Both the position numbers and the translations under genes were made by a program. Below, piece by piece: positions 619 through 31,817 of a DNA stretch of 41,087 nt (positions are counted from its first letter, which is position 1; each line of letters begins with the position of its first letter). Origin of the DNA: a virus; the IMG/VR virus record IMGVR_UViG_3300009314_000031, positions 1-41,087 of that record. One strand, 5' to 3'. The notes under the pieces are model-generated. The model saw only the letters and a program-made list of their open reading frames with translations. It was not told the origin of the DNA and searched no databases.

Positions 619-877
619 TTTTCTTCAATCCCTTTTTACTCTCGTCACTCATCCCATACCAATCTACGACATAGAGATGGTATGCGCTGTGGCGATAGTA
701 TTTCATCATAGGACCGAAAAGAAATTCAAGATACTGCCTAAGGTGGACAAGGCTGCCTAGCGGGGCATTGATTATGAACCCGGCTGACATATTAGCCTCT
801 AAGTCCTCGGGCTTTACTTTCGAGAGTGTTTCGTCGAAACCTCCAAACTTTAATTTCTCCATCCTACCTACCCTCAC
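611..877 (-). CDS. Small tail-region protein, 88 aa, unknown
   Basis: This 88-residue protein lies between the putative tail tube gene and the tail chaperone and overlaps the chaperone start. It has a Lys/Gly N-terminus, a central segment (about residues 30-65) with hydrophobic and aromatic residues and a lysine-rich C-terminus. I do not recognise the family. Its place suggests a minor tail or tube-associated protein. The tight overlap indicates translational coupling. Confidence 0.7.
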   Translation of the reverse strand: MRVGRMEKLKFGGFDETLSKVKPEDLEANMSAGFIINAPLGSLVHLRQYLEFLFGPMMKYYRHSAYHLYVVDWYGMSDESKKGLKKSG

Positions 878-4339: not shown

Positions 4340-4359
4340 ATCCCGGAAGCTGTGAAACC

Positions 4360-4488: not shown

Positions 4489-4499
4489 AGGTTCTACGG

Positions 4500-11215: not shown

Positions 11216-11231
11216 CCTCCATCCTCCATCC
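11211..11231 (-). repeat. Three tandem 7-bp units (GGATGGA) over a ribosome-binding site
   Basis: On the minus strand GGATGGA repeats three times directly ahead of the start codon of the 83-aa gene. Each unit contains ATG and the junctions create GGAGG. Because 7 is not a multiple of 3, change in copy number would shift which ATG is in frame and the spacing of the Shine-Dalgarno sequence. Confidence 0.8.
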
Positions 11232-11247
11232 TGAAACCCTCCTATGT

Positions 11248-11263
11248 GACGGCTTCCACCGTC
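11248..11263 (-). other. Hairpin after the capsid gene
   Basis: GACGG and CCGTC form a perfect 5-bp stem with a 6-base loop, 11 bp beyond the capsid TAA. No T-run follows it, so it is more likely an mRNA-stability or processing hairpin than an archaeal terminator. It resembles the GAAA hairpin in the capsid leader. Confidence 0.5.
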
Positions 11264-11273
11264 GGAGTTGAAC

Positions 11274-12356: not shown

Positions 12357-12383
12357 TTGCTTTTCCCTAGTTTCAAGTTGCTT

Positions 12384-12433
12384 CCCCAGTTGGGTTCACG
12401 ACGGCTTTCGCCGGAGACCTTCATAGCGGTCTC
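12384..12433 (-). ncRNA. Structured 5' leader of the capsid gene (three small hairpins)
   Basis: Reading the minus strand toward the capsid ATG there is GAGACC-8 nt-GGTCTC, then CGGC-GAAA-GCCG (a GNRA tetraloop), then a short CCC/GGG stem. The first two stems are perfect and abut one another. They lie 28-78 bases ahead of the start codon in sequence with no credible frame. They could stabilise the abundant capsid mRNA or bind a capsid or assembly protein. Function is inferred. Confidence 0.55.
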
Positions 12434-12445
12434 ACACTCAATATG

Positions 12446-12473
12446 AAAAAAAGGACGGTATCTACTAAATAAG
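12446..12473 (-). promoter_or_regulatory. Putative internal promoter of the capsid gene, with a T7 run
   Basis: CTTATTTA (12473-12466) is a plausible archaeal TATA box; about 26 bp downstream falls near 12443, just before the leader hairpins. Between them lies a run of seven T on the transcribed strand (12452-12446), which could terminate upstream transcripts in archaea. Together they would uncouple capsid expression from the genes before it. Confidence 0.4.
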
Positions 12474-12476
12474 ATT

Positions 12477-12490
12477 ACTTGTTTACAAGT
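12477..12490. other. 14-bp palindrome ACTTGTTTACAAGT
   Basis: Six-base arms ACTTGT/ACAAGT flank TT. It sits just upstream of the putative capsid TATA box and next to the TAA of the zinc-ribbon frame. It may be an operator or activator site for late transcription. Confidence 0.4.
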
Positions 12491-12778
12491 TTACAAAGTC
12501 GGTTTAGCGTAGAGGTCCTGTGTCTCGCTATCTTCTAACGGTGTCGTATGGCCGCACATGATACACTTTTTCCAAGTCAAGGTCGGACTGTAAGCCATGA
12601 AGCCTCAACAATCAGGACATGGCGGGGCCTTACATCCCGGATAGCTATGTTCATATTGGAATGCCGGGTTTTGAACTATCTCTCCGCAGTCCTGACATAG
12701 ATAAGCCTTAATGAGATGTCGAAGCTGCTTCTTAGGTTCTATGTGAACGTGAGCTCCACATGACTTGCATATTAATCA
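12491..12778 (-). pseudogene. Zinc-ribbon frame continuing past TAG-TGA and interrupted by a second TGA
   Basis: In the same frame as the 42-aa zinc protein, the sequence continues after TAG (12781-12779) and TGA (12778-12776) as LICKSCGAH, then LCQDCGEI, PCPDC, a TGA at 12607-12605, and GFM...KCIMCGH to a TAA at 12493-12491. Four CxxC knuckles in frame show coding selection now or recently. The second part has no ATG, GTG or TTG to start from. TGA after CPDC falls where Trp would fit. It is either a decayed gene or one that depends on readthrough. Confidence 0.6.
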
Positions 12779-12907
12779 CTATTGGTATCTGGGATTCGGA
12801 GCTATCTTGCCACAATGGGAGCATCTATAGTGAGGGATTTGTCTACGACATCCGCTACACGATTCTTCTCCTATGTTTCCGTTACAGTGTGGGCACTGGA
12901 ATACCAT
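12779..12907 (-). CDS. Zinc-ribbon mini-protein, 42 aa (N-terminal part of a longer frame)
   Basis: The frame encodes 42 residues with three CxxC knuckles (CPHC, CSGC, CSHC), a double zinc-ribbon arrangement, then TAG. It starts 4 bp after the protease-scaffold stop. The segment CSHCGKIAPNPRYQ right before the TAG matches CQDCGEIVQNPAFQ farther along the same frame, so the stop interrupts a duplicated unit. The protein probably binds zinc and possibly nucleic acid. Confidence 0.7.
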   Translation of the reverse strand: MVFQCPHCNGNIGEESCSGCRRQIPHYRCSHCGKIAPNPRYQ

Positions 12908-12911
12908 GAGC

Positions 12912-15098: not shown

Positions 15099-15106
15099 CG
15101 AAGCAC

Positions 15107-15262
15107 CTAAACGGGGTTGCTCATCGGCGAGTCTTCTTCTTGCACCGTGTTTTTTGGGGTTTCCCGCTTGGTCATAAGTTCACTATCACGACTGACTTCG
15201 CTTAGTGTAACTTTTTTCCTGAGCTTGTTTCCTCTCCAATCTTCCTTACTTCCTGACATCAT
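15107..15262 (-). CDS. Small charged protein, 51 aa
   Basis: The 51-codon frame starts MMSGSKEDWRGN (or at the second Met) and ends at TAG close to the protease-scaffold start. Its ATGATG overlaps the TGA of the preceding coiled-coil gene, and AAGGAGG gives a strong ribosome-binding site. It is charged and has no motif I recognise. Confidence 0.55.
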   Translation of the reverse strand: MMSGSKEDWRGNKLRKKVTLSEVSRDSELMTKRETPKNTVQEEDSPMSNPV

Positions 15263-15396
15263 GGTTCCTCCTTTTTCTTTCTCTTAGGTCGAGCTTTCAG
15301 GGCCTTCACAGAAGCCTTGAGGGATTCGACTTCTTTCTCAAGCTCCTGAACATAGCTGGTGACCTCTCTCCCCATCGCATTGAAATATCTTACCAT
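15259..15396 (-). CDS. Short coiled-coil protein, 45 aa
   Basis: The 45-residue frame has a heptad-like helix (YVQELEKEVESLKASVKALK) followed by a lysine/arginine-rich tail. AAAGGAGT lies upstream of its ATG, and its TGA overlaps the next start. It may be a small assembly or nucleic-acid-associated factor. Unknown family. Confidence 0.6.
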   Translation of the reverse strand: MVRYFNAMGREVTSYVQELEKEVESLKASVKALKARPKRKKKEEP

Positions 15397-15450
15397 CTGG
15401 GAGTGACTCCTTTAATAACCGTAATCAGTTTTAATGCTAAAACCTTTTCC

Positions 15451-15804
15451 CTATTCTGGCTCTAAATAGTAGACTACCCACTGGCATCTGCATCCCGGAT
15501 GGGCGGGCATCTGCGGAAGGAACCAGTTCGGCTGATAAAACCCGTTGCGACCGCCTTCACTGGCTTTTGTGCAGATAATACATACCCGGTCATCTCCGAC
15601 TGTAAGCCAAGCCAGCCATTTTACCTTGGGCGTGGTCCCGACGATTCTGATGGCATTGTTTACCGTCTTGTATGTGAAATCTTGGGCTAAGAACTCGATT
15701 CGTCGGATTATGCCATCCGGGGTGGTCCAGTAATTATCGTTCTGCTCAATATAGGGTCTTTGATGATAACACGCACAGGTAAGACAGCTACATATCTCCG
15801 ACAA
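15451..15804 (-). CDS. MuF-like head morphogenesis protein, C-terminal part, 117 aa
   Basis: The core has DDRVCIICTKASEGG and later MPAHPGCRCQWVV. A CxxC followed by P-x-HPxCRC is the signature of the phage Mu F-like C-terminal domain found in minor head proteins near the portal. It begins at a TTG overlapping the end of the preceding gene by 17 bp. The N-terminus has a further Cys cluster (CSCLTCACYH). The usual MuF helical part appears to be in the separate upstream frame. Confidence 0.7.
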   Translation of the reverse strand: MSEICSCLTCACYHQRPYIEQNDNYWTTPDGIIRRIEFLAQDFTYKTVNNAIRIVGTTPKVKWLAWLTVGDDRVCIICTKASEGGRNGFYQPNWFLPQMPAHPGCRCQWVVYYLEPE

Positions 15805-16102
15805 TCTTGTTCCATTCCTCGATGGCGTTTTTCGTGAAGTCGTCTATATCGTCCTCTACTTCTCTTTCAGGAATATCAAGACCCTGACGCCTAAAATGAC
15901 GTTCTGTGTCGGACATTAGAAGGTCACGATGGGCCATTATGTCAGCTTTTCCCAAAGTCCGAGCTTGGTCCTTAGTCAGGCGACCGGAGTTTACACCTCT
16001 GAAATGTGACAGGAGCTTCCGGTTTAGTTGACCTTTTCGTATTGTATAGAGTCCAGTCGGCATCATGAATCGCTTGAGGCCCTTAGTGCTAGGTTTACTC
16101 AT
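15788..16102 (-). CDS. Probable N-terminal helical part of a split MuF-like protein, 104 aa
   Basis: This basic helical protein ends in an acidic helical segment (EREVEDDIDDFTKNAIEEW). Its end overlaps the start of the CRC-motif gene by 17 bp in another frame, so the two may be a natural split or joined by recoding. I do not recognise it alone. Its place suits a minor head protein. Confidence 0.55.
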   Translation of the reverse strand: MSKPSTKGLKRFMMPTGLYTIRKGQLNRKLLSHFRGVNSGRLTKDQARTLGKADIMAHRDLLMSDTERHFRRQGLDIPEREVEDDIDDFTKNAIEEWNKIVGDM

Positions 16103-16367
16103 TGTCTCTATGTTCCTTTATGGTAGTCATAATTTTATCGGCTTGTTCTCTTAGTCTCTGTCTCCAAGGTGGTATGACGCTATCCCACGTTCTCTTATTG
16201 AGTTTGGGGACTTGTTTCACTATCTCATGAAGTAGCTCGGCTTGGTCACGGTATTGAATTATTAGTAAGTCTCTTTTTCGGATGTCTCTTTGCTGTCGTC
16301 TATGGAACTCTAGCTCTTCCATGAGTTCTTCTAGCTTTTTCTTCTTGAATAGAATGTAGCCTAGCAT
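16095..16367 (-). CDS. Helical charged protein, about 90 aa
   Basis: The frame begins at ATG 16367 (MLGYILFKKKK), or earlier at ATG 16397 inside the preceding 55-aa gene. It is dominated by basic and acidic helix (LEELMEELEFHRRQQRDIRK) and is probably coiled coil. It lies between the surface-protein array and the MuF-like genes and overlaps the next start. Function unknown. Confidence 0.6.
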   Translation of the reverse strand: MLGYILFKKKKLEELMEELEFHRRQQRDIRKRDLLIIQYRDQAELLHEIVKQVPKLNKRTWDSVIPPWRQRLREQADKIMTTIKEHRDNE

Positions 16368-16369
16368 TG

Positions 16370-16537
16370 TTAATCCACGAAGTAGACTAGCTTCCATCCT
16401 CTTGGGTCATCGGCAGCCCCGATACGAGTTCTGTATATGTGCCGGGATTCTGCACCTACCGTTATGTTCCCCAAGTATTGTAGGCTGTCATCCGTTTCGG
16501 CTAGGTTCTCTGCCTCGGGTTTTGTTATTTCCTCCAC
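16370..16537 (-). CDS. Small protein, 55 aa
   Basis: The GTG start overlaps the TAG of the preceding gene (TAGTG). The 55 residues alternate charged and beta-prone segments and end in WKLVYFVD. There is no recognised motif. Tight packing in the late operon and a GAGGTGAG upstream support it as a gene. Confidence 0.55.
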   Translation of the reverse strand: MEEITKPEAENLAETDDSLQYLGNITVGAESRHIYRTRIGAADDPRGWKLVYFVD

Positions 16538-17364
16538 TAGCTCACCTCCTCATAGAGTTCGTAGACTGCTCGGCCGTCAAGCTGTTGATTAGTTCCTATC
16601 GCAGATGTCATAGCTAATTGTATTGTTCCTAAATGGAAGTCAAAGGCATAATAATAAAAGAAATTATATGCTGTATCATGGGCTAGTGACCTTCCATCCC
16701 GAGTAGGGTCACGTGTCCAATATCTCCATGTATTGTTATTGAAGGTCGCCGTTGTTCCTAAGGCCGCTTCACCATCAATGGTGGTCGTTAGCTCTAAGAC
16801 CTTAGCGGCCGCTTCATCGTTTATCTGCCTCGCTATTACAAAGATAAGCCTTGCATCGACTAAGCCGTCAAAGATGTCATAAAGTGTAAGTGATACCGGA
16901 GGGTCTTGATTTAATACTGCGGTTGGATAATGCTTGTACCACCAGTAAGTTCCCGTTGGGACTTCACCATATTGCACATCACATTCAAGAACTTGATTCG
17001 TACCATTAACTGTATGAATAGCCGCTTCAACCGTGATAACGTGTCCACGTATCGGTACAGCGTAACCAGCATTACGAACAGCAGTAGTAAGGATGAGAGC
17101 ATCTTCTATTGGACTACGGTAAGCAAAATACGTTAAACCACTGACTCCTGCTACAATCCTACCGGAATACTCAGTACCGTCGATAGTAACAAGAATCTCA
17201 ATATCCTTGTTATCAGTCTCATCATTCGTTTGCTCAAGTGTCAAAGCAAAGACTTCACCGAGGGCTACCGTAGCTACTGAATAGTATTTATCTAGAGTGG
17301 GGTCAGCTTGGTCAATGTAGGCTATTGGTTTCATTTCTAACGTTGGGTTTATTTGAACACTCAT
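16537..17364 (-). CDS. Tandem-duplicated virion-surface-like protein (family B, two units), 275 aa
   Basis: Two homologous halves are present: about residues 1-135 and 136-275. Each repeats the pattern of a start with P-x-A-x-x-(N/D)-Q-(D/A)-P, a middle with (R/Q)xNDE, TxDG and an aromatic W/F-Y strand, and an end with an ALGTN/VNGTN-type turn and a beta strand. The same unit occurs singly in the next two genes. All-beta composition and position between portal and capsid suggest a decoration or capsid-fibre protein. Family function unknown. Confidence 0.65.
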   Translation of the reverse strand: MSVQINPTLEMKPIAYIDQADPTLDKYYSVATVALGEVFALTLEQTNDETDNKDIEILVTIDGTEYSGRIVAGVSGLTYFAYRSPIEDALILTTAVRNAGYAVPIRGHVITVEAAIHTVNGTNQVLECDVQYGEVPTGTYWWYKHYPTAVLNQDPPVSLTLYDIFDGLVDARLIFVIARQINDEAAAKVLELTTTIDGEAALGTTATFNNNTWRYWTRDPTRDGRSLAHDTAYNFFYYYAFDFHLGTIQLAMTSAIGTNQQLDGRAVYELYEEVS

Positions 17365-17790
17365 CTAAGTTGGTCTCCACGTCTCATATTGAACTCGAAT
17401 ATCAAACTCAGCGTTTGCTCCCGGTGCATCTACTTGCTGAGCATCAAACTTAATCGACCGTCCTTCTATTGCAGAGTAATAGTTAGGATGATAAATGGAT
17501 GTAGTAACTCTTAATGTTTCAGCATCTTGGTCAAGGTACCAGTAATACCAAGTGTTATCATTGTGTTCTTTATTTGCTACTGAGGTGATAACCCCATCTA
17601 TGGTTAATCTCCCTTGAAGGTTTTTCTGGTTTGCATCATCATCAAGTCTCCGAGTAGCGATAAACAATACTTTAGTTAATCTTGTCGTATCTAATCCGTC
17701 GTAATAAGTTGATACAATGGGTGGGTCTTCATCAACCTCTGATAATGAGTCCTTGTACCAGTAAAACTTATTTCTTCCGTAAACAGGCAT
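17365..17790 (-). CDS. Virion-surface-like protein, family B, 141 aa
   Basis: This is a single family B unit. It shares with its neighbours an N-terminal FYWYKDSL...DEDPP segment, a YYDGLDTT strand, a central RxxDD(A/E) loop, NDNTWYYWY and a C-terminal beta strand after PGANAEFD. It is all-beta and rich in aromatic residues. It lies 1 bp after its downstream neighbour's start in a run of paralogues, a sign of tandem duplication. Probably a virion surface or decoration component. Confidence 0.65.
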   Translation of the reverse strand: MPVYGRNKFYWYKDSLSEVDEDPPIVSTYYDGLDTTRLTKVLFIATRRLDDDANQKNLQGRLTIDGVITSVANKEHNDNTWYYWYLDQDAETLRVTTSIYHPNYYSAIEGRSIKFDAQQVDAPGANAEFDIRVQYETWRPT

Positions 17791-17793
17791 CTT

Positions 17794-18213
17794 TTATACC
17801 TCCTTCCTGATAGCGTATTGAATACGGCAATCAAGTTCAGGGTTAGTTCCAAGTGCTGAAGCAGAACGAACCTCTATTTTAGCTGAACGGTATGGTAATG
17901 GTGAATAGTATCCATACATACGGATTGATAAACCATGCACGTTTCCCTCTGAAATTTGGTGGCGATACCAATAGTACCATGTGTTATTATTTTCAACATA
18001 AGCATAATTTGTCCCGGTTATACCTTCGAGGGTTGTTCTTAGGTTTATTGACTTGCCGTCTGTTTCGTCATTAATCTGTCTGGTTGCGATTGAAAGTATC
18101 TTAACGTATTCGGTAGTATCAAGGCAAGTGTAATAGGTTCCTGAAAGGAAAGGGTCTTCGTTCACGACTGCTATAGGCTGTTTTTCCCAATACCATGTTA
18201 CTGCTCTTCCCAT
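17794..18213 (-). CDS. Virion-surface-like protein, family B, 139 aa
   Basis: This is the third family B gene: WYWEKQPIAVVNEDP at the start, CLDTTEYVKIL, RQINDETDGK, NNNTWYYWY and GTNPELDCRIQY near the end. These blocks align with the preceding and following paralogues by eye. The DNA is more A/T-rich than the neighbouring enzyme genes. Role in host attachment or capsid decoration is inferred from location and beta composition only. Confidence 0.65.
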   Translation of the reverse strand: MGRAVTWYWEKQPIAVVNEDPFLSGTYYTCLDTTEYVKILSIATRQINDETDGKSINLRTTLEGITGTNYAYVENNNTWYYWYRHQISEGNVHGLSIRMYGYYSPLPYRSAKIEVRSASALGTNPELDCRIQYAIRKEV

Positions 18214-18831
18214 CTACATCCTCACCGCCACATAGTCTAAGTCAAGGTCTTTAGCCACGTTCTCATCTGTAGCGATATACAGCTTAGGATAAAGACTAGT
18301 ATGAGTTGGAATATAATCTGTCCTTGGGCTGTTATCCACTTCAACGTCATCTATGTATGAATGGATGTGGAGCCCTCCGTGATTATGAAGTTGCCTTCTG
18401 AAAATGTGCCAATCCGTGTCTAAGGATTGACCAGTGTTTTGACTTGCACCAACATTGTAAGCCTCATTCCTTGTCTGCCAATCACTAGCGGTTTCCGAGA
18501 ACATAAGTCTGTTATCGTTTCCGTTTTGTAGTTCTATGATTAAAACTAAGTTACTTGTATGCGACAGAGAGAATCTAACTTCATAGGTCACTTGGTTTAA
18601 AGTGTTTAGAACCCCATAGTCCCAATCAATATCTGCGTGGTCATTAGTGGTAGCTCCTGTCCTTAGACGACATACTCCACCGGCCATACTGTCTACTACA
18701 GATATAGTAGAACCACCGCTAGTATTTTGACTCCATTCGTCTGCTATTGAATCTCCTAAGAAATGGTCATACCAGAAGAAGCGTCGCCTCTCACTTTCGA
18801 AGTCTTGATGTTCATGAAATATCAAGCTCAT
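18214..18831 (-). CDS. LamG-like virion-surface protein, family A, 205 aa
   Basis: Family A members begin with FWYDxFxGD-x-DEW and end with DYVAVR. This one has FFWYDHFLGDSIADEW, a GGS turn, GGVCRLRTGA, a long beta middle, DTDWHIFRRQ and LDYVAVRM. The alternating strands and the DEW/GG/WH pattern are those of concanavalin/LamG-type jelly rolls, which often bind glycans. Start overlaps the neighbour by 4 bp. Confidence 0.7.
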   Translation of the reverse strand: MSLIFHEHQDFESERRRFFWYDHFLGDSIADEWSQNTSGGSTISVVDSMAGGVCRLRTGATTNDHADIDWDYGVLNTLNQVTYEVRFSLSHTSNLVLIIELQNGNDNRLMFSETASDWQTRNEAYNVGASQNTGQSLDTDWHIFRRQLHNHGGLHIHSYIDDVEVDNSPRTDYIPTHTSLYPKLYIATDENVAKDLDLDYVAVRM

Positions 18832-19475
18832 ATATTTTGTCGCACTCCTACATAGTCAATATCCATATACTTCGCCTCGGCCTCCGTTGTCTCCATAAAG
18901 AATCGTGGCTGTAGGAAATCAGCCGCATCGTCAGGAATGTTTATTGCGATTGGGCTGTTCGCCGTTTCTACTCCATCAATGTAATAATGAACATGGCTAC
19001 CTCCGTGAAGATGGGCCTCAATTCGATAAATATGGAAGTCTGTGTCCATCGCTACACCACTTGTAAGCTGTGTGGTGGCTCCTCCATCTTCAGCGTAAAT
19101 AAACCAAGTGGACCCAGATTCAACAAACTGGATTTGATTATTACTATCAAAGAACAATGAAATCATAGCGTCTAAAGTTCCAACGGTAACTTTGCTGATT
19201 AATACTCGGGCTTCCATAGCGATGAGTTTGTTTACATGAAGGCTTCTCACGTTAGTCCAGTGAATAGAAGTGTCATCTTGAGTTACTGCTCCCGTCGTAA
19301 GTCTAGCTACCCCACCGGTTACGGCATCCACTACGGCGACGCTTCCGGCCCCAACGAGTGTCTGACCCCATTCATCGCCTAATTGGTCTCCGAGGAAATC
19401 ATCATACCAGAATAGTTCTGTCCTTAGAGATTCTAAGCTGAAATGTCCGGCTTGTTTAAGCGATACGTCTAGCAC
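18828..19475 (-). CDS. LamG-like virion-surface protein, family A, 215 aa
   Basis: This is the second family A paralogue: LFWYDDFLGDQLGDEWG, GGVARLTTGA, DTDFHIYRIE, GGSHVHYYIDG and IDYVGVRQ. It is closely related to 18214-18831 and 19776-20405. Jelly-roll-like, with a putative ligand-binding loop rich in His. It may decorate the capsid or bind carbohydrate, possibly the glycans made by the downstream cassette; that link is inference. Confidence 0.7.
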   Translation of the reverse strand: MLDVSLKQAGHFSLESLRTELFWYDDFLGDQLGDEWGQTLVGAGSVAVVDAVTGGVARLTTGAVTQDDTSIHWTNVRSLHVNKLIAMEARVLISKVTVGTLDAMISLFFDSNNQIQFVESGSTWFIYAEDGGATTQLTSGVAMDTDFHIYRIEAHLHGGSHVHYYIDGVETANSPIAINIPDDAADFLQPRFFMETTEAEAKYMDIDYVGVRQNI

Positions 19476-19779
19476 CTCCCGTTGAATCTTCCATGAGCTT
19501 CATTAAAATAGCCTCATCTCTGGATAAGACCGGCTGACCGGTGTATCTAGTGTAAACCTTGAAACATAGCTCCGAACAGAACCACCTTGAGGGCTTCACA
19601 CCTCCTAACTCGTCTTTATCCTTTTCCGGGCTGTCGCCTACTTTTCCAAGTCTGAGGAACTTTCCACATCCGAGGCAATTTATAGCGGCTAGTTTGGGCT
19701 TCCGAGGCTTATACGGAACGACGATATTATGAAGAGGGTCGTGAAACGGGTCTGTGCTGAAAGGCTTGTGTTTACTCAT
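19456..19779 (-). CDS. Zinc-binding protein inserted in the surface-protein array, 107 aa
   Basis: CLGCGKFLR and FCSELCF form a four-Cys zinc site of treble-clef or ribbon type (about residues 35-75), followed by a helical C-terminus. It sits between two family A genes and overlaps both. Similar small Cys4 proteins occur throughout this genome. Function unknown; possibly nucleic-acid or virion associated. Confidence 0.65.
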   Translation of the reverse strand: MSKHKPFSTDPFHDPLHNIVVPYKPRKPKLAAINCLGCGKFLRLGKVGDSPEKDKDELGGVKPSRWFCSELCFKVYTRYTGQPVLSRDEAILMKLMEDSTGGARRIA

Positions 19780-20405
19780 CTTTCTTGCCTCACCGCCACG
19801 TAATCTATTGTCACCGTTTTATTTGCTGTCTCTCTCGCCATCATCCTTATGTATGGTTGTAAGTGTTCTCCGGGAATATTGGTGGTGATTGGGCTATTCG
19901 TAAACTCGGAATCATCATAATAGTAGTGGGCATGATTACTGCCGTGTATATGTGTTTGAATGCGACAATTATGCCAATCTGTATTGAGAGTAGTTCCTGT
20001 ATCTTCGTCTGTCTGGGCACCACCATCTTCCGATAGGATGTGTATGGTGGTGTCTGTAAGGGTGTCGTGTTCAATGATAAGCCGGTTTGAGTCATCAAAA
20101 TCTAATCTGAAGTCATACCATACTAGAGAGATGTCATTTACTTTGGTCCTGAACTCGAAAGCACATTGTTTAGATACTAATAGCGTTCTGATGTCTCCCC
20201 AAGAAAGATAAGCCCAATGATTAAGTGTCGCACAAGTTAGGCGATATGCCGCACCAGTTATTTCATCTACTATGGCTCCGCTTCCACCGGAAACAGTTAA
20301 AGCCCACTCGTCTTTTAGTTGGTCTCCTTCAAAATCGTCATACCAGAAGAGCCTATCCTGTAACGAATCCAGACTTACGTCCTCATGATACGGGAGTAGA
20401 CTCAT
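19776..20405 (-). CDS. LamG-like virion-surface protein, family A, 209 aa
   Basis: This is the first transcribed family A paralogue: LFWYDDFEGDQLKDEW, TVSGGSGAIVD, a long beta middle, NTDWHNCRIQ, GSNHAHYYYDD and IDYVAVRQ. Its similarity to the next two family A genes spans the whole length, so they are in-line duplicates that have diverged. Probably exposed on the virion. Confidence 0.7.
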   Translation of the reverse strand: MSLLPYHEDVSLDSLQDRLFWYDDFEGDQLKDEWALTVSGGSGAIVDEITGAAYRLTCATLNHWAYLSWGDIRTLLVSKQCAFEFRTKVNDISLVWYDFRLDFDDSNRLIIEHDTLTDTTIHILSEDGGAQTDEDTGTTLNTDWHNCRIQTHIHGSNHAHYYYDDSEFTNSPITTNIPGEHLQPYIRMMARETANKTVTIDYVAVRQER

Positions 20406-24995: not shown

Positions 24996-25007
24996 TTCTC
25001 CATCCTA
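24996..25007 (-). promoter_or_regulatory. Late operon leader TAGGATGGAGAA
   Basis: The first G of GGATGG (25005) lies 26.5 bp from the centre of the TATA box at 25028-25035. The same 12 bases occur at 27015-27004 ahead of the ParB-like gene. It combines a probable transcript start with a Shine-Dalgarno-like sequence before the GTG at 24992. Confidence 0.55.
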
Positions 25008-25027: not shown

Positions 25028-25035
25028 TTTATATT
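25028..25035. promoter_or_regulatory. TATA box TTTATATT shared by divergent promoters
   Basis: Centre 25031.5. Reading right, GGTGCGATGG begins 26.5 bp away (25058); reading left, GGATGG begins 26.5 bp away (25005). One AT-rich box can thus serve the Vsr-like gene (+) and the late operon (-). Confidence 0.6.
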
Positions 25036-25057: not shown

Positions 25058-25067
25058 GGTGCGATGG
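25058..25067 (+). promoter_or_regulatory. Leader motif GGTGCGATGG of the Vsr-like gene
   Basis: One of five exact copies in this genome. It lies 1 base before the GTG start. GGTG can pair with the archaeal 16S 3' end, and its distance from the TATA box fits the transcription start. Confidence 0.6.
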
Positions 25068-25068
25068 C

Positions 25069-25389
25069 GTGGCCGACGTGTTTAGCAAGGAGAAGCGTTC
25101 AGAGATTATGAGTAAGATTCGTAATAAATGGACCAGCCCCGAAAAGAAATACTACGACGAGCATCCTGACGCCTTGCCTCATCCCGATTGGCTACCCTTC
25201 AAACCCGACTTCTTAAAGGATAAGATACCGATATTCCTCGATTCTACGTTTTGGCATGGCTACGTGAAAAGGTGCAAATATGACGGATACGACGAGTTCT
25301 GGTCGAAAAAACTATTCAGGAACATAATGCGGGACGTGTGCCGTGATTCCTTCTGGGGCTTGCTTGACTACGAAGTTATCCTAGTATAG
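25069..25389 (+). CDS. vsr: Vsr-like very-short-patch repair endonuclease, 106 aa
   Basis: Vsr nicks at T:G mismatches left by deamination of 5-methylcytosine. Seen: DVFSKEKRSEIMSKIRNK at the start (family N-terminal block), KPDF (metal Asp), FLDSTFWHGY with the catalytic-site His, and FWSKKLFRNIMRD. It ends at EVILV just before the usual final WE strand, so it is slightly shorter than the family (about 135 aa). GTG start at 25069. It stands alone on the plus strand, near two C5 methyltransferases, a logical partner. Confidence 0.85.
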   Translation: MADVFSKEKRSEIMSKIRNKWTSPEKKYYDEHPDALPHPDWLPFKPDFLKDKIPIFLDSTFWHGYVKRCKYDGYDEFWSKKLFRNIMRDVCRDSFWGLLDYEVILV

Positions 25390-25614
25390 ATGGAACCTAA
25401 ACCCGCATTCCGGACATTCAAGCCTGTTGATAAACCCGTAAGGACGACTCACGTATAATCCATACTCCGGACATTTTGACACGTAATAAGCAAACGGCGC
25501 CCTATGACTCGGTTCCTGATAATGCCCGATGTAAACATATTTGAAAAGCCTCAACCGTATCCTCTGCCAAAGGGAGAGGGAGGAGGGGTGCCGGGGAGGA
25601 GGGAGGGGGCACAT
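25381..25614 (-). CDS. Zinc-ribbon protein, 77 aa
   Basis: The C-terminal LECPECGFRFHLY is a CxxC zinc knuckle; a KCPEYG segment may add a third Cys. The N-terminus is encoded by the G/C tract at 25572-25609 and is low complexity (Pro/Arg/Ser). It starts 5 bp after the C5 methyltransferase stop and ends 9 bp inside the opposite Vsr-like gene. The start is uncertain. Confidence 0.6.
   Translation of the reverse strand: MCPLPPPRHPSSLSLWQRIRLRLFKYVYIGHYQEPSHRAPFAYYVSKCPEYGLYVSRPYGFINRLECPECGFRFHLY
25572..25609 (+). other. G-rich purine tract with quadruplex potential
   Basis: Runs GGG, GGG, GGGG, GGGG, GGG and GGGGG fall within 38 bases separated by 1-5 bases, a canonical G-quadruplex pattern on the plus strand. 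It is the only such tract I found. It overlaps the start of the zinc-ribbon gene on the other strand. Confidence 0.7.
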
Positions 25615-25619
25615 CTACC

Positions 25620-26528
25620 TTAACTTGAATCTATAGGAATAAGTATTCTTTCTTTTATTGTCTTTGCTATGCGATACATCATATTCACGGGGACGGCGTT
25701 TCCTATGATAGTCTTGTTCAGTCTCCAGCTCTTACTGAATATGTAGTCTTCCGGGAATGTCTGTAAATCCGCATAGCTTCTCAATCCTAGCTCTCTCATC
25801 GTGTCCGACCATGCGAAGAATGCTTGCGTAGTTACTGTATGGGCCGGATAGCCTTCGTTTACTATGTGGTTGTTGAACCTTCCCCATTTGAAGCGGTCTC
25901 CCTTAAACGGTTTTCCACGTTCATCGAGTTTTCTTGCGCCCACTATCTTACCCGTAGGAATGGGAAATACGGGGTCCATGCCGAGGTCCTTCCTGACTCC
26001 TATGAATATCACTCGTTCTCTCTTTTGTGGGACTTCGTAATTCACGGAATTAAGGACTTTGGCCTTTACGACGTATCCATAGCTGCGGAGCTCCCTAAGG
26101 ATATTCGCAAACATGAGCTTCATCTTACCGAGGACAAGGCCCTTGACGTTTTCACCGACGAATACCTTTGGCTGAAGTTCTTTCAGGATGTTAGCCCATG
26201 CGTAAAACAGGTAGTTCTTGTCATCCCGGAGTTTCCGTCGTCCACCTATGCTAAATCCTTGACAAGGCGGAGAACCGTCTAGCAAATCAAGGGCTCCCGG
26301 GGCTAGTCCAGTTGTGCTTAAAATGTCATCGGCTGAAACGTTCTTAATATCTGCTACTAATGTCGGTATGTCCGGGAAGTTCTTTTCAAAGATGGCCATT
26401 ATCTTGGGGTCATAATCTGTGGCCAATATCTCGTCATATCCGGCTTTGCAATAGCCCATTGAAGAACCACCGCCTCCGGCGAAGAAACTTATAACTCTGG
26501 GACGAATTTCATTCCGCAACTTGGACAT
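25620..26528 (-). CDS. C5-cytosine DNA methyltransferase, 302 aa
   Basis: It transfers a methyl group to C5 of cytosine. Motif I FFAGGGGSSMGY (15-26), motif IV GSPPCQGFS with catalytic Cys89, motif VI ENVKG (126-130), motif VIII QKRERVIFIG (168-177) and motif X IGNAVPVNM near the end are all present, so it looks active. The target domain is short. Start ATG at 26528 overlaps the ParB-like gene by 40 bp. No cognate restriction enzyme is seen, so it is probably a solitary, protective enzyme. Confidence 0.95.
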   Translation of the reverse strand: MSKLRNEIRPRVISFFAGGGGSSMGYCKAGYDEILATDYDPKIMAIFEKNFPDIPTLVADIKNVSADDILSTTGLAPGALDLLDGSPPCQGFSIGGRRKLRDDKNYLFYAWANILKELQPKVFVGENVKGLVLGKMKLMFANILRELRSYGYVVKAKVLNSVNYEVPQKRERVIFIGVRKDLGMDPVFPIPTGKIVGARKLDERGKPFKGDRFKWGRFNNHIVNEGYPAHTVTTQAFFAWSDTMRELGLRSYADLQTFPEDYIFSKSWRLNKTIIGNAVPVNMMYRIAKTIKERILIPIDSS

Positions 26529-27004
26529 TGAACCTCTCCTAAGTCCTCATCGACATCCATTTCAGCAGCTGTGCCTCGCATCTCTAATACTTGCAAGTGT
26601 TTCATCAGGGCATGCTCCGTAAGTCCTATCATCTCCTTCAGGGCTTCTTCTTCCCCGAAGTCCACTATCCTTTTGAACTCTTCCGCATCCGCATAAAATT
26701 CGTGGCTTCCCTTCAGCTTATTGAGGACTTGTCTTAAAAGCCGCCTATCTATGTCCTTTATCGGGAGCTTGACTATCGGGACGGCTGGAAGGTTCATGGC
26801 TATGGCCTCTTCTGCTCTTTGCTGCCCGTCTGCGACAAATAATTCGTTGTTTGTGATTATGGGAATTATGAAGCCCCATCTTATCATGCTTTCCCGGAGG
26901 GCCTTTCTCTGGCGGTCCGTCATCTTGTTGGGGTTGTCACCGTCAAAAACGAGATTATTGGGATTTACGAACTCTACTTTCGGGATTTCTACTTGAACAC
27001 TCAT
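26489..27004 (-). CDS. ParB-like nuclease-domain protein, 171 aa
   Basis: An N-terminal ParB/sulfiredoxin-type domain is visible: PNNLVFDGDNPNKMTDRQRKALRESMIRWGF, split here as the substrate loop and helix, then VADGQQRAEEAIAMN, the motif of the family. The C-terminal end has CPSCGMKF, a zinc knuckle. Such proteins often travel with phage methyltransferases. Its start is at the leader TAGGATGGAGAA. Role in partition, or as an accessory to the methyltransferase, is not certain. Confidence 0.8.
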   Translation of the reverse strand: MSVQVEIPKVEFVNPNNLVFDGDNPNKMTDRQRKALRESMIRWGFIIPIITNNELFVADGQQRAEEAIAMNLPAVPIVKLPIKDIDRRLLRQVLNKLKGSHEFYADAEEFKRIVDFGEEEALKEMIGLTEHALMKHLQVLEMRGTAAEMDVDEDLGEVQCPSCGMKFVPEL

Positions 27005-27015
27005 TCTCCATCCTA
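27004..27015 (-). promoter_or_regulatory. Leader TAGGATGGAGAA of the ParB/methyltransferase unit
   Basis: Identical 12-mer to that ahead of the late operon. An AT-rich stretch with a weak TATA-like box (TTATCT) is about 26 bp upstream. GGAGAATG places a Shine-Dalgarno next to the ATG. Confidence 0.5.
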
Positions 27016-27077
27016 CTTAGGATTTCACAGACTTTAGAGATAAGTTTTGGGGAAGCGATTATATAATAATATATCAT

Positions 27078-27091
27078 TGATATATATCAAT
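27078..27091. promoter_or_regulatory. 14-bp palindrome TTGATATATATCAA, candidate operator
   Basis: It is a perfect palindrome in the divergent region between the ParB-like (-) and ribbon-helix-helix (+) genes. It covers the TATA position of the plus promoter (centre about 30 bp before GGTGCGATGG). Ribbon-helix-helix proteins bind such palindromes and often repress themselves. Confidence 0.55.
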
Positions 27092-27114
27092 ATAATATAT
27101 ATATCAAAAGGAGC

Positions 27115-27124
27115 GGTGCGATGG
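27115..27124 (+). promoter_or_regulatory. Leader motif GGTGCGATGG at the RHH gene
   Basis: Exact copy of the shared 10-mer. Here the ATG within the motif is the likely start codon (MGRK). Confidence 0.6.
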
Positions 27125-27522
27125 GACGAAAACCTATGAAATTTAGTGACCGCAAGACGGACATGGTTCAGTTTAGGGTGCCAAGGGAAAAGCACGAACT
27201 TATGGACAGGATACAGGTAATAGCGAAGCGTGAGGGAGAGAATGTCAATGACGTCATCATAAGGGCGCTTGACGAATATGACGAAAAGCATTGGAAGGGT
27301 AACTATCAGACCTTGATGGAGAGCTTCGAGGAAGGTGGAGTCAAGTCTAACGGGCAATTCCAGCAAGAGATTATCAGACAGCTTGAACACAGAAAAAGCA
27401 CATACTGGAAGGAAATCATACGAATATTAAAGCAGAAGGGAATCAAGCCTAAGAAGCGGGTTGAGATGGGCAGGGAGATAGCGAAGGCCCTTAAAGACAA
27501 AGAGGTAGAGGTAATATTTTGA
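27121..27522 (+). CDS. Ribbon-helix-helix DNA-binding regulator, 133 aa
   Basis: Residues about 15-50 (MVQFRVPREKHELMDRI, then VNDVIIRALDEY) form a beta-helix-helix of the Arc/CopG type. A longer C-terminal helical region (60-133) is charged. It opens the operon with the second methyltransferase and faces the palindrome at 27078-27091. Likely regulator of this promoter pair. Confidence 0.82.
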   Translation: MGRKPMKFSDRKTDMVQFRVPREKHELMDRIQVIAKREGENVNDVIIRALDEYDEKHWKGNYQTLMESFEEGGVKSNGQFQQEIIRQLEHRKSTYWKEIIRILKQKGIKPKKRVEMGREIAKALKDKEVEVIF

Positions 27523-28127
27523 AGGCCCTAGACTTATTTTGCGGTCTTGGCGGGTGAAGTGACGGATTGGCCGCTGCGGGATTCAATGTCCTTGGTGTTG
27601 AGATTGTCCCTTGGGTGGCCGAAGAATACAAGCATGAAGTAATACTCGCAGATGTATCCTATCTTGACTCATCTAAGTTTAAAGACTACGACGTGATAGT
27701 GGGCAGCCCACCCTGTAGAGATTTTAGCATCATAGACCGGTCCTTTGGTCACAAGTGGAAGAGGCCGCCGGACCCTGAGGGAGAAGGCATGAGGCTTGTC
27801 GAGGTTTTCCTAAATTTCGTCAAAGTAGCGGAACCTAGATTCTGGCTTATGGAGAACGTTCCCGGACTTGCGAAATACATAGGTCCTCCGAAGGCTCATC
27901 CCACACTTGGACAGGGAATGAAGAGGTATTTTTGGGGAGAGTTCCCAAGGTTCCTGATTCCCCGGGATATGAATAAGAAGTTGATACAAGTGAAAAAAAA
28001 ATCGAATTACCCAAGAAAAAAGGCTTTGTTTGAAAGGTCTAGAATCCCGTTCCCGTGCGCCTATTCCTTCGCCAAGGCGTGTGCAGACTTAATACAGGAC
28101 GACCCTTCCGAATATCCTGAGGTCTAG
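27519..28127 (+). CDS. Compact C5-cytosine methyltransferase with in-frame TGA in motif I
   Basis: TTG start overlaps the RHH stop. The frame reads KALDLFCGLGG-TGA-SDGLAAAGF. In this family motif I is DLFCGxGGWS, so the TGA (27555-27557) sits at a Trp. It continues with motif IV SPPCRDFS, motif VI LMENVPG and a short C-terminus; total 202 codons, typical of small viral C5 enzymes lacking a large target domain. Either TGA is read as Trp, or a recent nonsense mutation has inactivated an otherwise intact gene, or it is a sequencing error. A restart at ATG would miss motif I. Confidence 0.8.
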
Positions 28128-28286
28128 TTCATCTTCGATTGCGGCTAGGATTTCCTTGATGTTCTCATAATGCTTTTCGTGGCCGGTCGGGGCATCCCCA
28201 AAGTGGAAGGTCCCCCAGCCCATTTGTCTCCTAAGGCGGTTTCTCTCGGCGTAAAGCTGCTCAAGTGTCATCGCTTTCAAGTTCAT
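28089..28286 (-). CDS. Helical mini-protein, 65 aa
   Basis: Mainly helix (LEQLYAERNRLRRQMG; IKEILAAIEDELDLRI), last gene of the DUF932 operon. It overlaps the end of the opposite methyltransferase gene by 39 bp. No motif recognised; possibly a coiled-coil partner. Confidence 0.6.
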   Translation of the reverse strand: MNLKAMTLEQLYAERNRLRRQMGWGTFHFGDAPTGHEKHYENIKEILAAIEDELDLRIFGRVVLY

Positions 28287-28449
28287 CTTCGTTGAGTTCT
28301 TCGACTATCTCCGGATACTGAGAGCACAGGGATAAGAGCTCTGCGAAGAACCCTTGACACACTTTCCGAGTCTGGTCCTCTATGTTTTGCAGATGCTTGA
28401 CGGCTTTGTTTAGCTTCAAGGCCCTCGCCATGATGTGTTTATGAACCAT
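28261..28449 (-). CDS. Helical mini-protein, 62 aa
   Basis: Helical N-terminal two thirds with an acidic C-terminus (EELNEDELESDD). Start may be ATG 28449 or ATG 28431 (the second Met, MARALK). It overlaps both neighbours in the operon. Unknown function. Confidence 0.6.
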   Translation of the reverse strand: MVHKHIMARALKLNKAVKHLQNIEDQTRKVCQGFFAELLSLCSQYPEIVEELNEDELESDDT

Positions 28450-28570
28450 TGATGAACCTCCTGACGGTTACTACGGTGTTTCCGCAAATCCTCAGCTTCG
28501 TGCAGTTCAGGCAGTTCGTGTTTAAGGTGGCAAAGTAGTCTATCGGGTTGTGCTTCGTGCATACGTTCAT
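28439..28570 (-). CDS. Cys-rich mini-protein, 43 aa
   Basis: MNVCTKH...NCLNCTKLRICG gives a C-x3-H..C-x2-C..C cluster, zinc-finger like. ATG at 28570 overlaps the TGA of the previous gene (ATGA); the longer frame to 28645 lies inside that gene. Confidence 0.6.
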   Translation of the reverse strand: MNVCTKHNPIDYFATLNTNCLNCTKLRICGNTVVTVRRFINGS

Positions 28571-28767
28571 TCTGTCCAGCCCTCCTTGACGTAAATTATA
28601 GCCGTCCAAACTAGGCAGTCTTCTTTGCTGATAGAGTGGACGCATTCTCTGAAGAGGTAGGTTCCCGATTTCTCAGAAAAGACGTTCTCATACCAGAGCT
28701 TTTCGGACCGGTTATACCAGACCCGGAGCTCATGCTTGGGGCCGACTCTTAGCTTGGTGACTTTCAT
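28567..28767 (-). CDS. Mini-protein, 66 aa
   Basis: A beta-rich protein (TKLRVGPKHELRVWYNR; LWYENVFSEKSGTYLF) followed by a C-terminal strand ending GWTE. It follows the DUF932-like gene with a 4-bp overlap. Unknown; conserved pairing with the DUF932-like gene would be informative. Confidence 0.6.
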   Translation of the reverse strand: MKVTKLRVGPKHELRVWYNRSEKLWYENVFSEKSGTYLFRECVHSISKEDCLVWTAIIYVKEGWTE

Positions 28768-30038
28768 TGAACAATCACCAATTCGGCTTCTTTGTCTTGG
28801 TATCTTTCAGGATAGTCCTTTTCGCCAGTCAGCTTCTCGTAGGTGATTGCTCCTTGTTCGTTGTGGAACTTGGCTATTGTCGGGGCTAGGCAGTAGACCT
28901 CTCCGGCTATGCTTTCGAGGATTCTTGTCATGTTCTGCTCTTCACGGCTTTTGCTGCGGCTCTTGATTTCTCCGTGTGTCCGGACCCAGCTTACTGCTTG
29001 GCTGAATCCCCAGACGGTCTCTTCTGCCACGCTTGCCATGATGTTGTCTACCATGTATTTGGGAATCTGCTTCTTGACTGCGTAGGCCACCAAGATGTCC
29101 TCCATCTCCTGTCGGCTCAGGCTCGTCTTTAGGCTTTTCTCGACTAATGCCTCTATGACTGGGGAGTAGTCTACCAAGTCCTCTAAGACTTTCTTGAGCT
29201 TGGCTATCAGCTCGTTTATGTCCGGGATTCTGTTTCCGGTCATGTGTATTTCGTGGGTTCCGAATCCTTGGTCGACGCCCCGGATATTTACGCCCGGGAC
29301 TATGATTTCAAGTTCCTTGGCTGCCCATTCATTTATCCTTACGGCTTTGATTCCGAACATCTGCAGTGGAACTATCCACACGTTTGCCCAATTCATACAG
29401 GCTGGGACTTTGTTGCCGCCGCCATCTCTGTATCTCAGGTCGGTTCCGGGTTTATCGGTCCTTACTCTTGTGGATATTCTCACGGCTGAACGCCCTTTGG
29501 CTAAGTTGTTTCCCGCATCCACGTGTGCCCACAGGCTTATGTTCTTGTTCTCGGTAGGCATCTTGTAAGTCGCCGTGTTTGGCGTAAATTCTACGAGCTC
29601 AGTGTCCTTGCCGAATGTCATGTCTACTGCGTCTTGGACTGCTCCTTTTATCTCCGCCCAGCTTATCTGCTGGTGAAGCATGCTAGAAACGCCCTTGCAC
29701 TCTCCTTCCTCAAAGTGGAATTTGAGCTTGATTGGCTTTCCGTCGCTTTCCCGGAGATTGACTATCTCTTGGATTAGTCCTTGTGACTCGGCTGCTTCCA
29801 TTGCTGTAAGCTCTTTGTATTTGATTCCAATCTTCCTGTAGAAGTATTCGAAGAATCTCCTTACTGCATGTCTATCAATCAAGGTTATCTGTTCGCCGTT
29901 TTCATCTGTCAGTACTATTGTTTTCCTTTTTGGGTTCTTCTCATCCGCTTCAATGCGGACGGTTTGAGGTCCGAAGACCTTCTCATAGAACATCCCTTCA
30001 TCGGGGTGTTCAATTCTGGTTCTTTCAGGTGTTTCCAT
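28764..30038 (-). CDS. DUF932-like protein, 424 aa
   Basis: The central part (NISLWAHVDAGNNLAKGRSA, VRISTRVRTDKPGTDL and later IHMTGNRIPDINE) and the C-terminal WGFSQAVSWVRTHGE resemble the DUF932 plasmid/phage-like family, whose function is not established. Start ATG 30038 is 3 bases after GGTGCGATGG, with TATA box TTATATAA 26.5 bp before the motif. A TTG start at 30056 is the longer alternative. It may act in plasmid-like replication or defence; unproven. Confidence 0.6.
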   Translation of the reverse strand: METPERTRIEHPDEGMFYEKVFGPQTVRIEADEKNPKRKTIVLTDENGEQITLIDRHAVRRFFEYFYRKIGIKYKELTAMEAAESQGLIQEIVNLRESDGKPIKLKFHFEEGECKGVSSMLHQQISWAEIKGAVQDAVDMTFGKDTELVEFTPNTATYKMPTENKNISLWAHVDAGNNLAKGRSAVRISTRVRTDKPGTDLRYRDGGGNKVPACMNWANVWIVPLQMFGIKAVRINEWAAKELEIIVPGVNIRGVDQGFGTHEIHMTGNRIPDINELIAKLKKVLEDLVDYSPVIEALVEKSLKTSLSRQEMEDILVAYAVKKQIPKYMVDNIMASVAEETVWGFSQAVSWVRTHGEIKSRSKSREEQNMTRILESIAGEVYCLAPTIAKFHNEQGAITYEKLTGEKDYPERYQDKEAELVIVQ

Positions 30039-30041
30039 TTT

Positions 30042-30051
30042 CCATCGCACC
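30042..30051 (-). promoter_or_regulatory. Leader motif GGTGCGATGG of the DUF932 operon
   Basis: Exact 10-mer, with TATA box TTATATAA at 30081-30074 centred 26.5 bp upstream. It is 3 bases before the ATG. An inverted repeat ACCTGCA (30049-30055)/TGCAGGT (30093-30099) flanks the promoter. Confidence 0.6.
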
Positions 30052-30132
30052 TGCAAATATTATGCGCTCAGCGTTATATAAGCTCTTCCTGCAGGTATTA
30101 CTTATTAGGAATACGCATTTCAGAGCCCACTT

Positions 30133-30216
30133 TCACCCGCCTCCGGGAAGGTTTTTATTTTTAGACGTCCTTTTTAAACCCGGTTTGCCTCGGTGATGAA
30201 AGTTTTTAACTTCCAT
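30133..30216 (-). CDS. Doubtful 27-aa basic frame
   Basis: ATG within a GGTGCGATGG copy opens a 27-codon frame, Lys/Arg/Gly rich, in the 237-bp divergent intergenic region. It has no motif and may be just leader sequence or an mRNA without a gene. Confidence 0.2.
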   Translation of the reverse strand: MEVKNFHHRGKPGLKRTSKNKNLPGGG

Positions 30217-30222
30217 CGCACC
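30213..30222 (-). promoter_or_regulatory. Extra copy of GGTGCGATGG in the divergent region
   Basis: Same 10-mer on the minus strand, with no well-placed TATA box 26 bp away (the nearest AT-rich box is about 35 bp upstream). It may be a regulatory protein site rather than a leader. Confidence 0.45.
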
Positions 30223-30253
30223 TAGCCGGGGCATGACCACCCAGACAGGTGAA

Positions 30254-30292
30254 TTTATATTTATATAAATTATATAAAAGATGGTGCGATGG
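30254..30292 (+). promoter_or_regulatory. Promoter of the plus-strand regulator operon
   Basis: TTTATATT (30254-30261) is centred 25.5 bp before GGTGCGATGG (30283-30292). The AT-rich stretch from 30252 to 30279 could hold the TATA box and a B-recognition element. The gene start ATG is at 30294. The intergenic region 30039-30293 holds two divergent promoters and no credible gene. Confidence 0.6.
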
Positions 30293-30293: not shown

Positions 30294-30599
30294 ATGGAAA
30301 ACGCATTAACGGACCCTCTCTTAGAGCCGATAAGAGAAGAGGCATACAGGACAGTCATCCACTACAGCTATGACAGCTTAGGCCGGATGATTCAGGAAAC
30401 CCGGATAAAACTGGAGTCTCAGGAACTTGGAGAGGAAGAGGAGCCCAAAAAGACAATCTACACCGGGGTGGATGCTTTGGCGTCGGTGGAGCACGATGAC
30501 GTGAACTCGTTTTTAGAAAATGGTTATGTCATACTGCACCACTACCAAAAGACCTGCATAATGGCATTGTATCGAAAGGAGGACGAGGGAGGTGAATAA
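30294..30599 (+). CDS. Acidic protein, 101 aa, first gene of the plus-strand operon
   Basis: A helical, acidic protein (MENALTDPL...) with ELGEEEEPKK in the middle and a C-terminal half that alternates helix and strand. ATG at 30294 sits 1 base after GGTGCGATGG; the longer frame from 30249 reads AT-rich promoter sequence and is rejected. Unknown function; overlaps the next gene by 8 bp. Confidence 0.65.
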   Translation: MENALTDPLLEPIREEAYRTVIHYSYDSLGRMIQETRIKLESQELGEEEEPKKTIYTGVDALASVEHDDVNSFLENGYVILHHYQKTCIMALYRKEDEGGE

Positions 30600-30921
30600 A
30601 CTGGAATTTAACCTAGAAGAAACAGGCCTCAGGACCATTTTCAAGGACTATCAGGAATTGGCTATGAAGATATTATGGGAAGATGACGGTAAGAACAGCC
30701 GAGAAGTTTACGCCTTAGTGAACGACCAAATAAAAATCAGCAGAGCCTCAATCATCACCTTCCTGAACGCTATGGTAGAAGAAGGCTACCTGACCTTTGA
30801 AGAGAAATCCGGGAAAGGCGGCTATCACAAAATCTACTATACTCTTATGACAGAAGAAGACTTCCGAGTCCAACTTTACGATAAGATATGTAAGAGAGCA
30901 TGGGAAGAGATGAGAAAATGA
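30592..30921 (+). CDS. Winged-helix regulator, BlaI/MecI-like, 109 aa
   Basis: YQELAMKILWE...SREVYALVN...ISRASIITFLNAMVEEGYLTFE...GGYHKIYYTL is the BlaI/MecI-type wing-helix pattern: helices, recognition helix, then the wing. GTG start at 30592 follows GGAGGTGA. Such repressors bind operators in their own or neighbouring promoters. It is the second gene of the operon. Confidence 0.75.
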   Translation: MNKLEFNLEETGLRTIFKDYQELAMKILWEDDGKNSREVYALVNDQIKISRASIITFLNAMVEEGYLTFEEKSGKGGYHKIYYTLMTEEDFRVQLYDKICKRAWEEMRK

Positions 30922-31433: not shown

Positions 31434-31817
31434 GTGAATGACATTCATAGAGATGACGTTTTGGATGGCCGTAATCGTCAGTCTAACTATTTATCTATTG
31501 TATCGGTTCCACGAACTACGCCAGAAGATTTAGACCTGATGGCCCTGAACAAGGTTCTTATCTCCATCATCTATTCGGATAGAGCAAGCAGAGCCTTTCT
31601 AGGCTGGACGTTCAAATCCATAGACATTTACAGGATTCTCGGCGAATGCAGAGCAGCGACAGCCGGAGCCATAGGGTCTAAGGCGAACATACCGGAAGCC
31701 ACAGTGCACAGAATACTCACAAAATTCAAAGACGCCGGACTAATCGAAAGAGTCGGCTACATCAATGTAAAGAAAAAAGGAGGACCCCGGCCCTCACTTT
31801 GGGGGCTTATCATGTGA
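31434..31817 (+). CDS. Winged-helix DNA-binding protein, 127 aa
   Basis: The C-terminal half (ILGECRAATAGAIGSKANIP, then EATVHRILTKFKDAGLIERVGYINV) fits an archaeal-type winged helix: helix-turn-helix at about 75-105 and a short wing. GTG start at 31434 follows GGAAGAG. Likely a transcription regulator. The next gene starts at GTG within its ATGTGA end. Confidence 0.72.
   Translation: MNDIHRDDVLDGRNRQSNYLSIVSVPRTTPEDLDLMALNKVLISIIYSDRASRAFLGWTFKSIDIYRILGECRAATAGAIGSKANIPEATVHRILTKFKDAGLIERVGYINVKKKGGPRPSLWGLIM

Follow-up and report, generated by a model that had tools for sequence, protein, structure and literature searches.

A repeated ten-base leader motif at putative early transcript starts of a virus likely to infect Bathyarchaeia

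The virus record IMGVR_UViG_3300009314_000031 of IMG/VR, analysed here over its whole length of 41,087 bp (the window), contains five exact copies of the ten-base sequence GGTGCGATGG (motif A, or leader A), all oriented downstream, in the same way relative to the gene. Motif A is a real, non-random, virus-specific leader element. Our favoured explanation, to which we give about an even chance, is that it defines a class of early promoters, lies at the transcript start, and is recognised as DNA by a protein of the virus. The copies are listed below.

25058..25067, + strand: motif A copy 1, 1 nt 5' of the GTG start of a Vsr-like endonuclease gene
27115..27124, + strand: motif A copy 2, with the ATG (27121) of a ribbon-helix-helix (RHH) gene inside the motif
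30042..30051, - strand: motif A copy 3, 3 nt 5' of the ATG of the gene for a 424-aa protein
30213..30222, - strand: motif A copy 4, with an ATG inside the motif and a possible 27-codon open reading frame (ORF)
30283..30292, + strand: motif A copy 5, 1 nt 5' of the ATG of the gene for a 101-aa protein

Positions and strands of all five agree with those given by a first-pass annotation made from the sequence alone, and its restriction of the motif to the non-structural part of the genome was borne out, no sixth exact copy being present in the record; the sole copy with one mismatch lies at 11870, within a structural gene. Dinucleotide shuffles of the window give an expectation of 0.02 copies, and five were reached in no shuffle; in third-order Markov simulations the sequence occurred 0.09 times on average and at most once. 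The 12-mer GGTGCGATGGAA is present three times in the window. One other 10-mer in the window reaches five copies, namely TCATACCAGA, inside coding sequence (18767, 19402, 20338, 28688, and 38577, three of these at similar distances from neighbouring late-gene starts); its repeats probably reflect a shared protein motif.

Motif A stands beyond chance because of its placement at gene starts, not because of its copy number. Taken by itself, a count of five is not striking: of 100 third-order Markov simulations, 23 contained a 10-mer with that many copies. Stretches of up to 15 nt before gene starts, taken on the strand of the gene, amount to 1.2% of the two strands together, and they contain all copies with a credible downstream gene (4/4). 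Copy 4 (30213) was left out of this count, since the start of its 27-codon ORF had been picked from the motif itself, and the start codon at 27115 is part of the motif, so that the fully independent cases number three. When the five sites are stacked without gaps, positions 1–10 are invariant and no invariant column is found within 30 bp on either side; the flanks agree pairwise at 4–13 of 30 positions, close to the expectation for random or AT-rich sequence. The ten bases themselves are conserved, and recent copying of a longer promoter block is unlikely because the flanks are at chance level. The copies at 30213 (-) and 30283 (+) form an inverted repeat, 60 bp apart.

Promoter spacing and start codons

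Predicted TATA boxes accompany three of the copies. They were scored with a simple archaeal matrix; both the matrix and the cut-off of 12 are our own.

25028..25035, + strand: TATA box TTTATATT, centre 26.5 bp before motif A copy 1
30075..30082, - strand: TATA box CTTATATA, centre 27.5 bp before copy 3, or 26.5 bp if the box is taken as TTATATAA
30254..30261, + strand: TATA box TTTATATT, centre 25.5 bp before copy 5

The spacing from the centre of the box to the first base of the motif, noted earlier for three copies, was recovered at 25058 (26.5 bp), 30042 (26.5–27.5 bp), and 30283 (25.5 bp). Such a spacing, 25.5–27.5 bp, fits a transcript start at or beside the first G of the motif, and it is supported by the sequence that the copies are located where transcripts should begin. 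We infer that transcripts start at motif A and that the motif-headed genes are early. When the comparison is limited to genes preceded by a non-coding gap of 25 bp or more, scores of at least 12 are found at motif-headed starts alone; TATA-like 8-mers of comparable score are also present elsewhere, mostly within genes, so the TATA score alone does not define promoters.

The first-pass statement that the gene starts 1–3 bases after the motif is correct for 25058, 30042, and 30283 (1, 3, and 1 nt, respectively) and incorrect for 27115 and 30213, with their ATG inside the motif; the distance from motif A to the start codon is not constant. A combination of transcript start and Shine-Dalgarno sequence had also been proposed; the placement at expected starts agrees with it, and the pairing covers GGTG alone. 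GGTG precedes the start codon by 7 nt (25058), 9 nt (30042), and 7 nt (30283), which is within the range of most GGTG-type sites in the same genome. In the two remaining copies (27115, 30213) it is only 2 nt from the internal ATG, and at 27115 a separate Shine-Dalgarno sequence, GGAG, lies 7 nt before the ATG. The Shine-Dalgarno sequence predicted in three copies can account for four of the ten bases, leaving CGATGG unexplained. Other genes of the virus have AGGAGG, GGAGGT, GGTGAT, and similar sequences as Shine-Dalgarno, without motif A. Because six further bases are invariant and the Shine-Dalgarno sequences of other genes vary, something beyond ribosome binding seems to be conserved. The argument from conservation of the whole 10-mer to an extra function holds in part, with six invariant bases between random flanks.

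Copy 4 is the 5' arm of a predicted 5' hairpin (GGUGCGAUGGAAGUU / AACUUUCAUCACC). A possible basic ORF of 27 codons extends over 30133-30216 (-), with the product MEVKNFHHRGKPGLKRTSKNKNLPGGG; alternatively, 30133-30222 (-) could encode a small RNA or serve as a long leader for the gene of the 424-aa protein, whose own motif copy lies 171 bp downstream of copy 4. No common RNA fold was found among the motif A leaders (folding z-scores +1.8 to -1.7), and a search of Rfam gave no match.

A second leader and the motif-headed genes

A second repeated leader, TAGGATGGAGA (motif B, or leader B), is present three times in the window, always on the - strand.

24997..25007, - strand: motif B, at the head of a leftward operon that begins before the terminase large-subunit gene and continues into the packaging and structural genes
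27005..27015, - strand: motif B, heading the ParB-like/cytosine methyltransferase operon, divergent from motif A copy 2
856..866, - strand: motif B, probably including the ATG of a late-strand gene and lacking a TATA box at promoter spacing

Leader B faces leader A across two divergent regions, 24997(-)/25058(+) and 27005(-)/27115(+); in the third divergent pair, 30213(-)/30283(+), leader A is on both sides. In the first of these regions the box at 25028-25035 is shared, its centre being 26.5 bp from leader A and, read as AATATAAA on the other strand, 24.5 bp from leader B (25007). For the leader B at 27005, the one TATA candidate, at 25.5 bp, is a poor match. The position of leader B opposite leader A, with the two heading different operons, suggests two promoter classes.

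The genes under motif A and the features beside them are the following.

25069..25389, + strand: gene for the Vsr-like endonuclease, headed by copy 1 (Pfam Vsr, E 1.8e-7, with position 1 of the profile falling on residue 2 of the product)
27076..27091, no strand assigned: perfect 16-bp palindrome ATTGATATATATCAAT, occurring once in the window, just before the RHH gene; candidate separate operator
27121..27522, + strand: Arc/CopG-like RHH gene, candidate regulator (PHROG Arc-like repressor, E 2e-4; weak RHH_1, E 0.037)
28764..30038, - strand: gene for the 424-aa protein, first gene of a leftward operon, headed by copy 3
30294..30599, + strand: gene for the 101-aa protein of unassigned family, opening a rightward early operon, headed by copy 5
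30592..30921, + strand: BlaI/CopY-like winged-helix gene, candidate regulator, second gene of the copy-5 operon (Pfam Penicillinase_R, E 8.2e-9; CopY_TcrY, 1.8e-8, yet below its cut-off)

Another winged-helix protein encoded in a motif-headed operon (31434-31817) is a further candidate regulator. The 424-aa protein had no convincing match in Pfam, PHROG, or NCBIfam, and AlphaFold models of the 101-aa and RHH proteins were of low confidence (predicted local distance difference test [pLDDT] 56 and 60) and uninformative. The palindrome at 27076-27091 is a candidate autoregulatory operator of the RHH gene, as judged from its symmetry and position. Downstream of the RHH gene, at 27522-28127 (+), a cytosine methyltransferase frame contains an in-frame TGA in its N-terminal motif (FCGLGG*SDG); the gene may be disrupted, the TGA may stem from a sequencing or strain difference, or the codon may be recoded. 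Elsewhere in the window, at 11210-11232 (-), a tandem repeat of GGATGGA at a gene start encodes ATGGAGGATGGAGGATGGAG and offers several possible starts.

The virus, its relatives, and wider collections

The virus likely infects Bathyarchaeia, as judged from protein similarity. Its terminase is 40–49% identical to those of viral contigs and up to 51% identical to those of genomes in the class of a Bathyarchaeota metagenome-assembled genome (MAG); one terminase relative in the host-class genomes sits on a 1.1-Mb contig and is presumably a provirus. Tailed-type viruses of Bathyarchaeia are known (PMC10848311). Structural proteins are held in common with few relative records, at 23–74% identity, and early proteins hardly at all; the 424-aa, 101-aa, and RHH proteins had no relatives in IMG/VR, and a DNA search of phage records found nothing. 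Nucleotide comparison of window positions 1-20000 with the presumed host-class genomes gave short partial similarity and no clear spacer match.

In the ten relatives examined for gene-start 9-mers, the top ones occur at no more than four genes (<=4) and are largely A-rich or contain ATG; in the window, leaders A and B top the list. One relative (G012; L183/L184, about 33551 and 33668) carries GCAGTAAG at a pair of divergent starts close to TATA boxes; this may be a leader repeat of that virus, with only two copies, unequally spaced.

Of two Bathyarchaeota MAGs, one contains motif A, at a frequency no higher than background. Among 257 presumed host-class genomes, a TATA box with the motif was found in 11, once in each, similar to the reversed control, so that no enrichment is seen. 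Three pattern scans were run over the 2.9 million viral contigs of IMG/VR. The scan for a TATA box with the motif gave one match per stretch among the matches listed. Two matches came from the scan for the inverted pair; the contigs concerned carry genes of bacterial-phage type, and neither match shows the arrangement of TATA box and gene start. This number is about chance level, as some 1.7 would be expected by a rough estimate from an assumed collection size. The scan for TATA box, motif, and ATG gave 17 stretches, which were judged from the immediate sequence to be mostly coding coincidences (ORFs were listed for L229 and L232 only) and set aside. Only L230 resembles copy 5: at position 2008 (+) of this contig, of 34% GC, a single GGTGCGATGGAATGGAA stands beside an AT-rich stretch. 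No match listed from the three scans is distinguishable from chance, and motif A appears to be private to this virus or to close relatives outside the collections.

Regulation through motif A: explanations and precedents

In the explanation that we favour, host RNA polymerase would start from the TATA box about 26 bp upstream, so that motif A would span about +1 to +10 of the transcript, with its first four bases doubling as Shine-Dalgarno sequence of the following gene. A viral protein would recognise the ten fixed, asymmetric, and oriented bases on DNA and would thereby switch the early set together. Repression with feedback would be the likeliest mode, because the candidates (Arc-like RHH, BlaI-like, and winged-helix proteins) are encoded in motif-headed operons; leader B would mark a second promoter class opposite leader A at two divergent regions. 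Both the existence of such a regulator and its action as a repressor are what we infer from these arrangements.

Several observations weigh against this explanation. The region upstream of 27115 is one long AT run in which the TATA spacing cannot be fixed, and copy 4 (30213) has no TATA-like box nearer than about 33 bp, a spacing too long by some 6 bp or more. A palindrome of its own (27076-27091) precedes the RHH gene and is absent from the other four motif A sites; RHH and BlaI-type families usually bind dyad-symmetric sites, and motif A is asymmetric. None of the 13 relative virus records, each searched over its full length, contains motif A, which is weak evidence given how distant they are, and the ten distant relatives have no leader-A-like 9-mer at gene starts; with terminase identities of 40–51% and unrelated early regions, these relatives are a poor test of motif conservation.

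The main rival is a translation signal in the leader RNA, in which GGUG pairs with the tail of 16S rRNA and CGAUGG, which separates GGUG from the start codon, is recognised by an RNA-binding factor of host or virus that either enhances or blocks initiation on early mRNAs; we regard it as possible, at clearly lower probability than a DNA-read promoter element. It would explain why the motif always lies in the sense strand at a start codon, and the GGTG spacings of 7, 7, and 9 nt are usual for this genome. Precedent is given by the start-associated sequences of Cluster K mycobacteriophages (PMC3203893), asymmetric 13-mers of non-structural genes placed a few bases from start codons, in which a Shine-Dalgarno core is joined to conserved bases that do not pair; as here, these are short asymmetric repeats at starts of non-structural genes, and they are rare in other phages and in hosts. 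The Cluster K consensus, GGGATAGGAGCCC, has 11–19 copies and is kept across the phage cluster, whereas motif A is a different 10-mer, with five copies in one virus, which sometimes includes the start codon and adjoins TATA boxes. A signal read on RNA is also harder to reconcile with the variable distance to the start codon, with a site (27115) where the ATG is inside the motif and GGAG is already provided 7 nt upstream, with the lack of a conserved RNA fold, and with copies that stand only at the heads of putative transcription units and not at internal genes of the same operons. A related idea, which we think rather improbable, is that GGUGCGAUGG is a 5' tag of early mRNAs, read as RNA by a viral or host factor so that these mRNAs are translated, protected, or shut off as a set, with UAGGAUGGAGA as the parallel tag of the other class; if RNA rather than DNA is read, this would be an unusual way of tagging early mRNAs.

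It is unlikely, though a little less so than such a tag, that the motif has no dedicated reader and is simply a favourable initiator and Shine-Dalgarno sequence for the host machinery, which ordinary selection for high expression would maintain. In so short a leader, transcript start, Shine-Dalgarno sequence, and start context have to be combined, GGTG at 7–9 nt is adequate, and the copies accompany strong TATA boxes; constraints of this kind, however, normally lead to degenerate matches and not to ten identical bases at five sites, the presumed host-class genomes hold no excess of the motif, and other genes of the virus have different Shine-Dalgarno sequences. We consider it very improbable that motif A is a dispersed repeat or marks a recombination boundary, having been copied to gene borders, where it would help early modules to be exchanged: the copies do lie at unit borders in a variable early region, one pair of them inverted at 60 bp, but conservation ends exactly at ten bases, between random flanks, a length that is short for homologous exchange, and the motif is found in none of the relative virus records.

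The nearest precedent for a DNA-read promoter element is halovirus HF2, whose promoter repeats fall into class I, of early-middle genes, and class II, of late genes (PMC8707807, Russ et al. 2021); for class I, transcription begins at a G within a conserved motif and the TATA box is at -26 (PMC8707807). As in HF2, what is probably an archaeal tailed virus here seems to have two classes of repeated promoter sequence, class I being found among early-middle genes in HF2, and a repeat occurs at several viral promoters with no exact copy elsewhere in the genome. One class II repeat of HF2 lies where the coding strand changes; here, leaders A and B face each other across divergent regions. The HF2 repeats are longer (58 and 29 bp) and include the promoter core, whereas motif A consists of ten bases from the presumed start on; the HF2 promoters were tested by reporter and primer extension and those described here are predicted, and no sequence similarity is claimed. 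Early genes of SIRV2-type viruses have a virus-specific consensus around a strong core of TATA box and transcription factor B recognition element (BRE), and viral regulators have been suggested for them (PMC11065993). A virus-specific consensus is common to the early genes there and to the putative early genes here, the regions around the core differing between SIRV2-type viruses; the BRE/TATA core is shared between SIRV2-type viruses, whereas in the present virus the leader is conserved and the core varies by site. Stoperators of Cluster A mycobacteriophages are asymmetric operators, oriented with transcription, to which the repressor binds as a monomer (PMC9283540). These are 13-mers with more than 20 sites, also intergenic and away from promoters, unlike motif A, which is found at unit heads only, and no homologue of the Cluster A Rep-type repressor was identified among the window proteins with Pfam, PHROG, and NCBIfam. 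Motif A is new in its sequence and in its confinement to the presumed transcribed leader; its kind is known from archaeal viral promoter repeats.

To our knowledge, there is essentially no work on how viruses of Bathyarchaeia-like archaea regulate their genes. An exact short leader, with a second leader facing it, gives a handle for predicting temporal gene classes in uncultured archaeal viruses, and the leaders offer small, testable promoter constructs.

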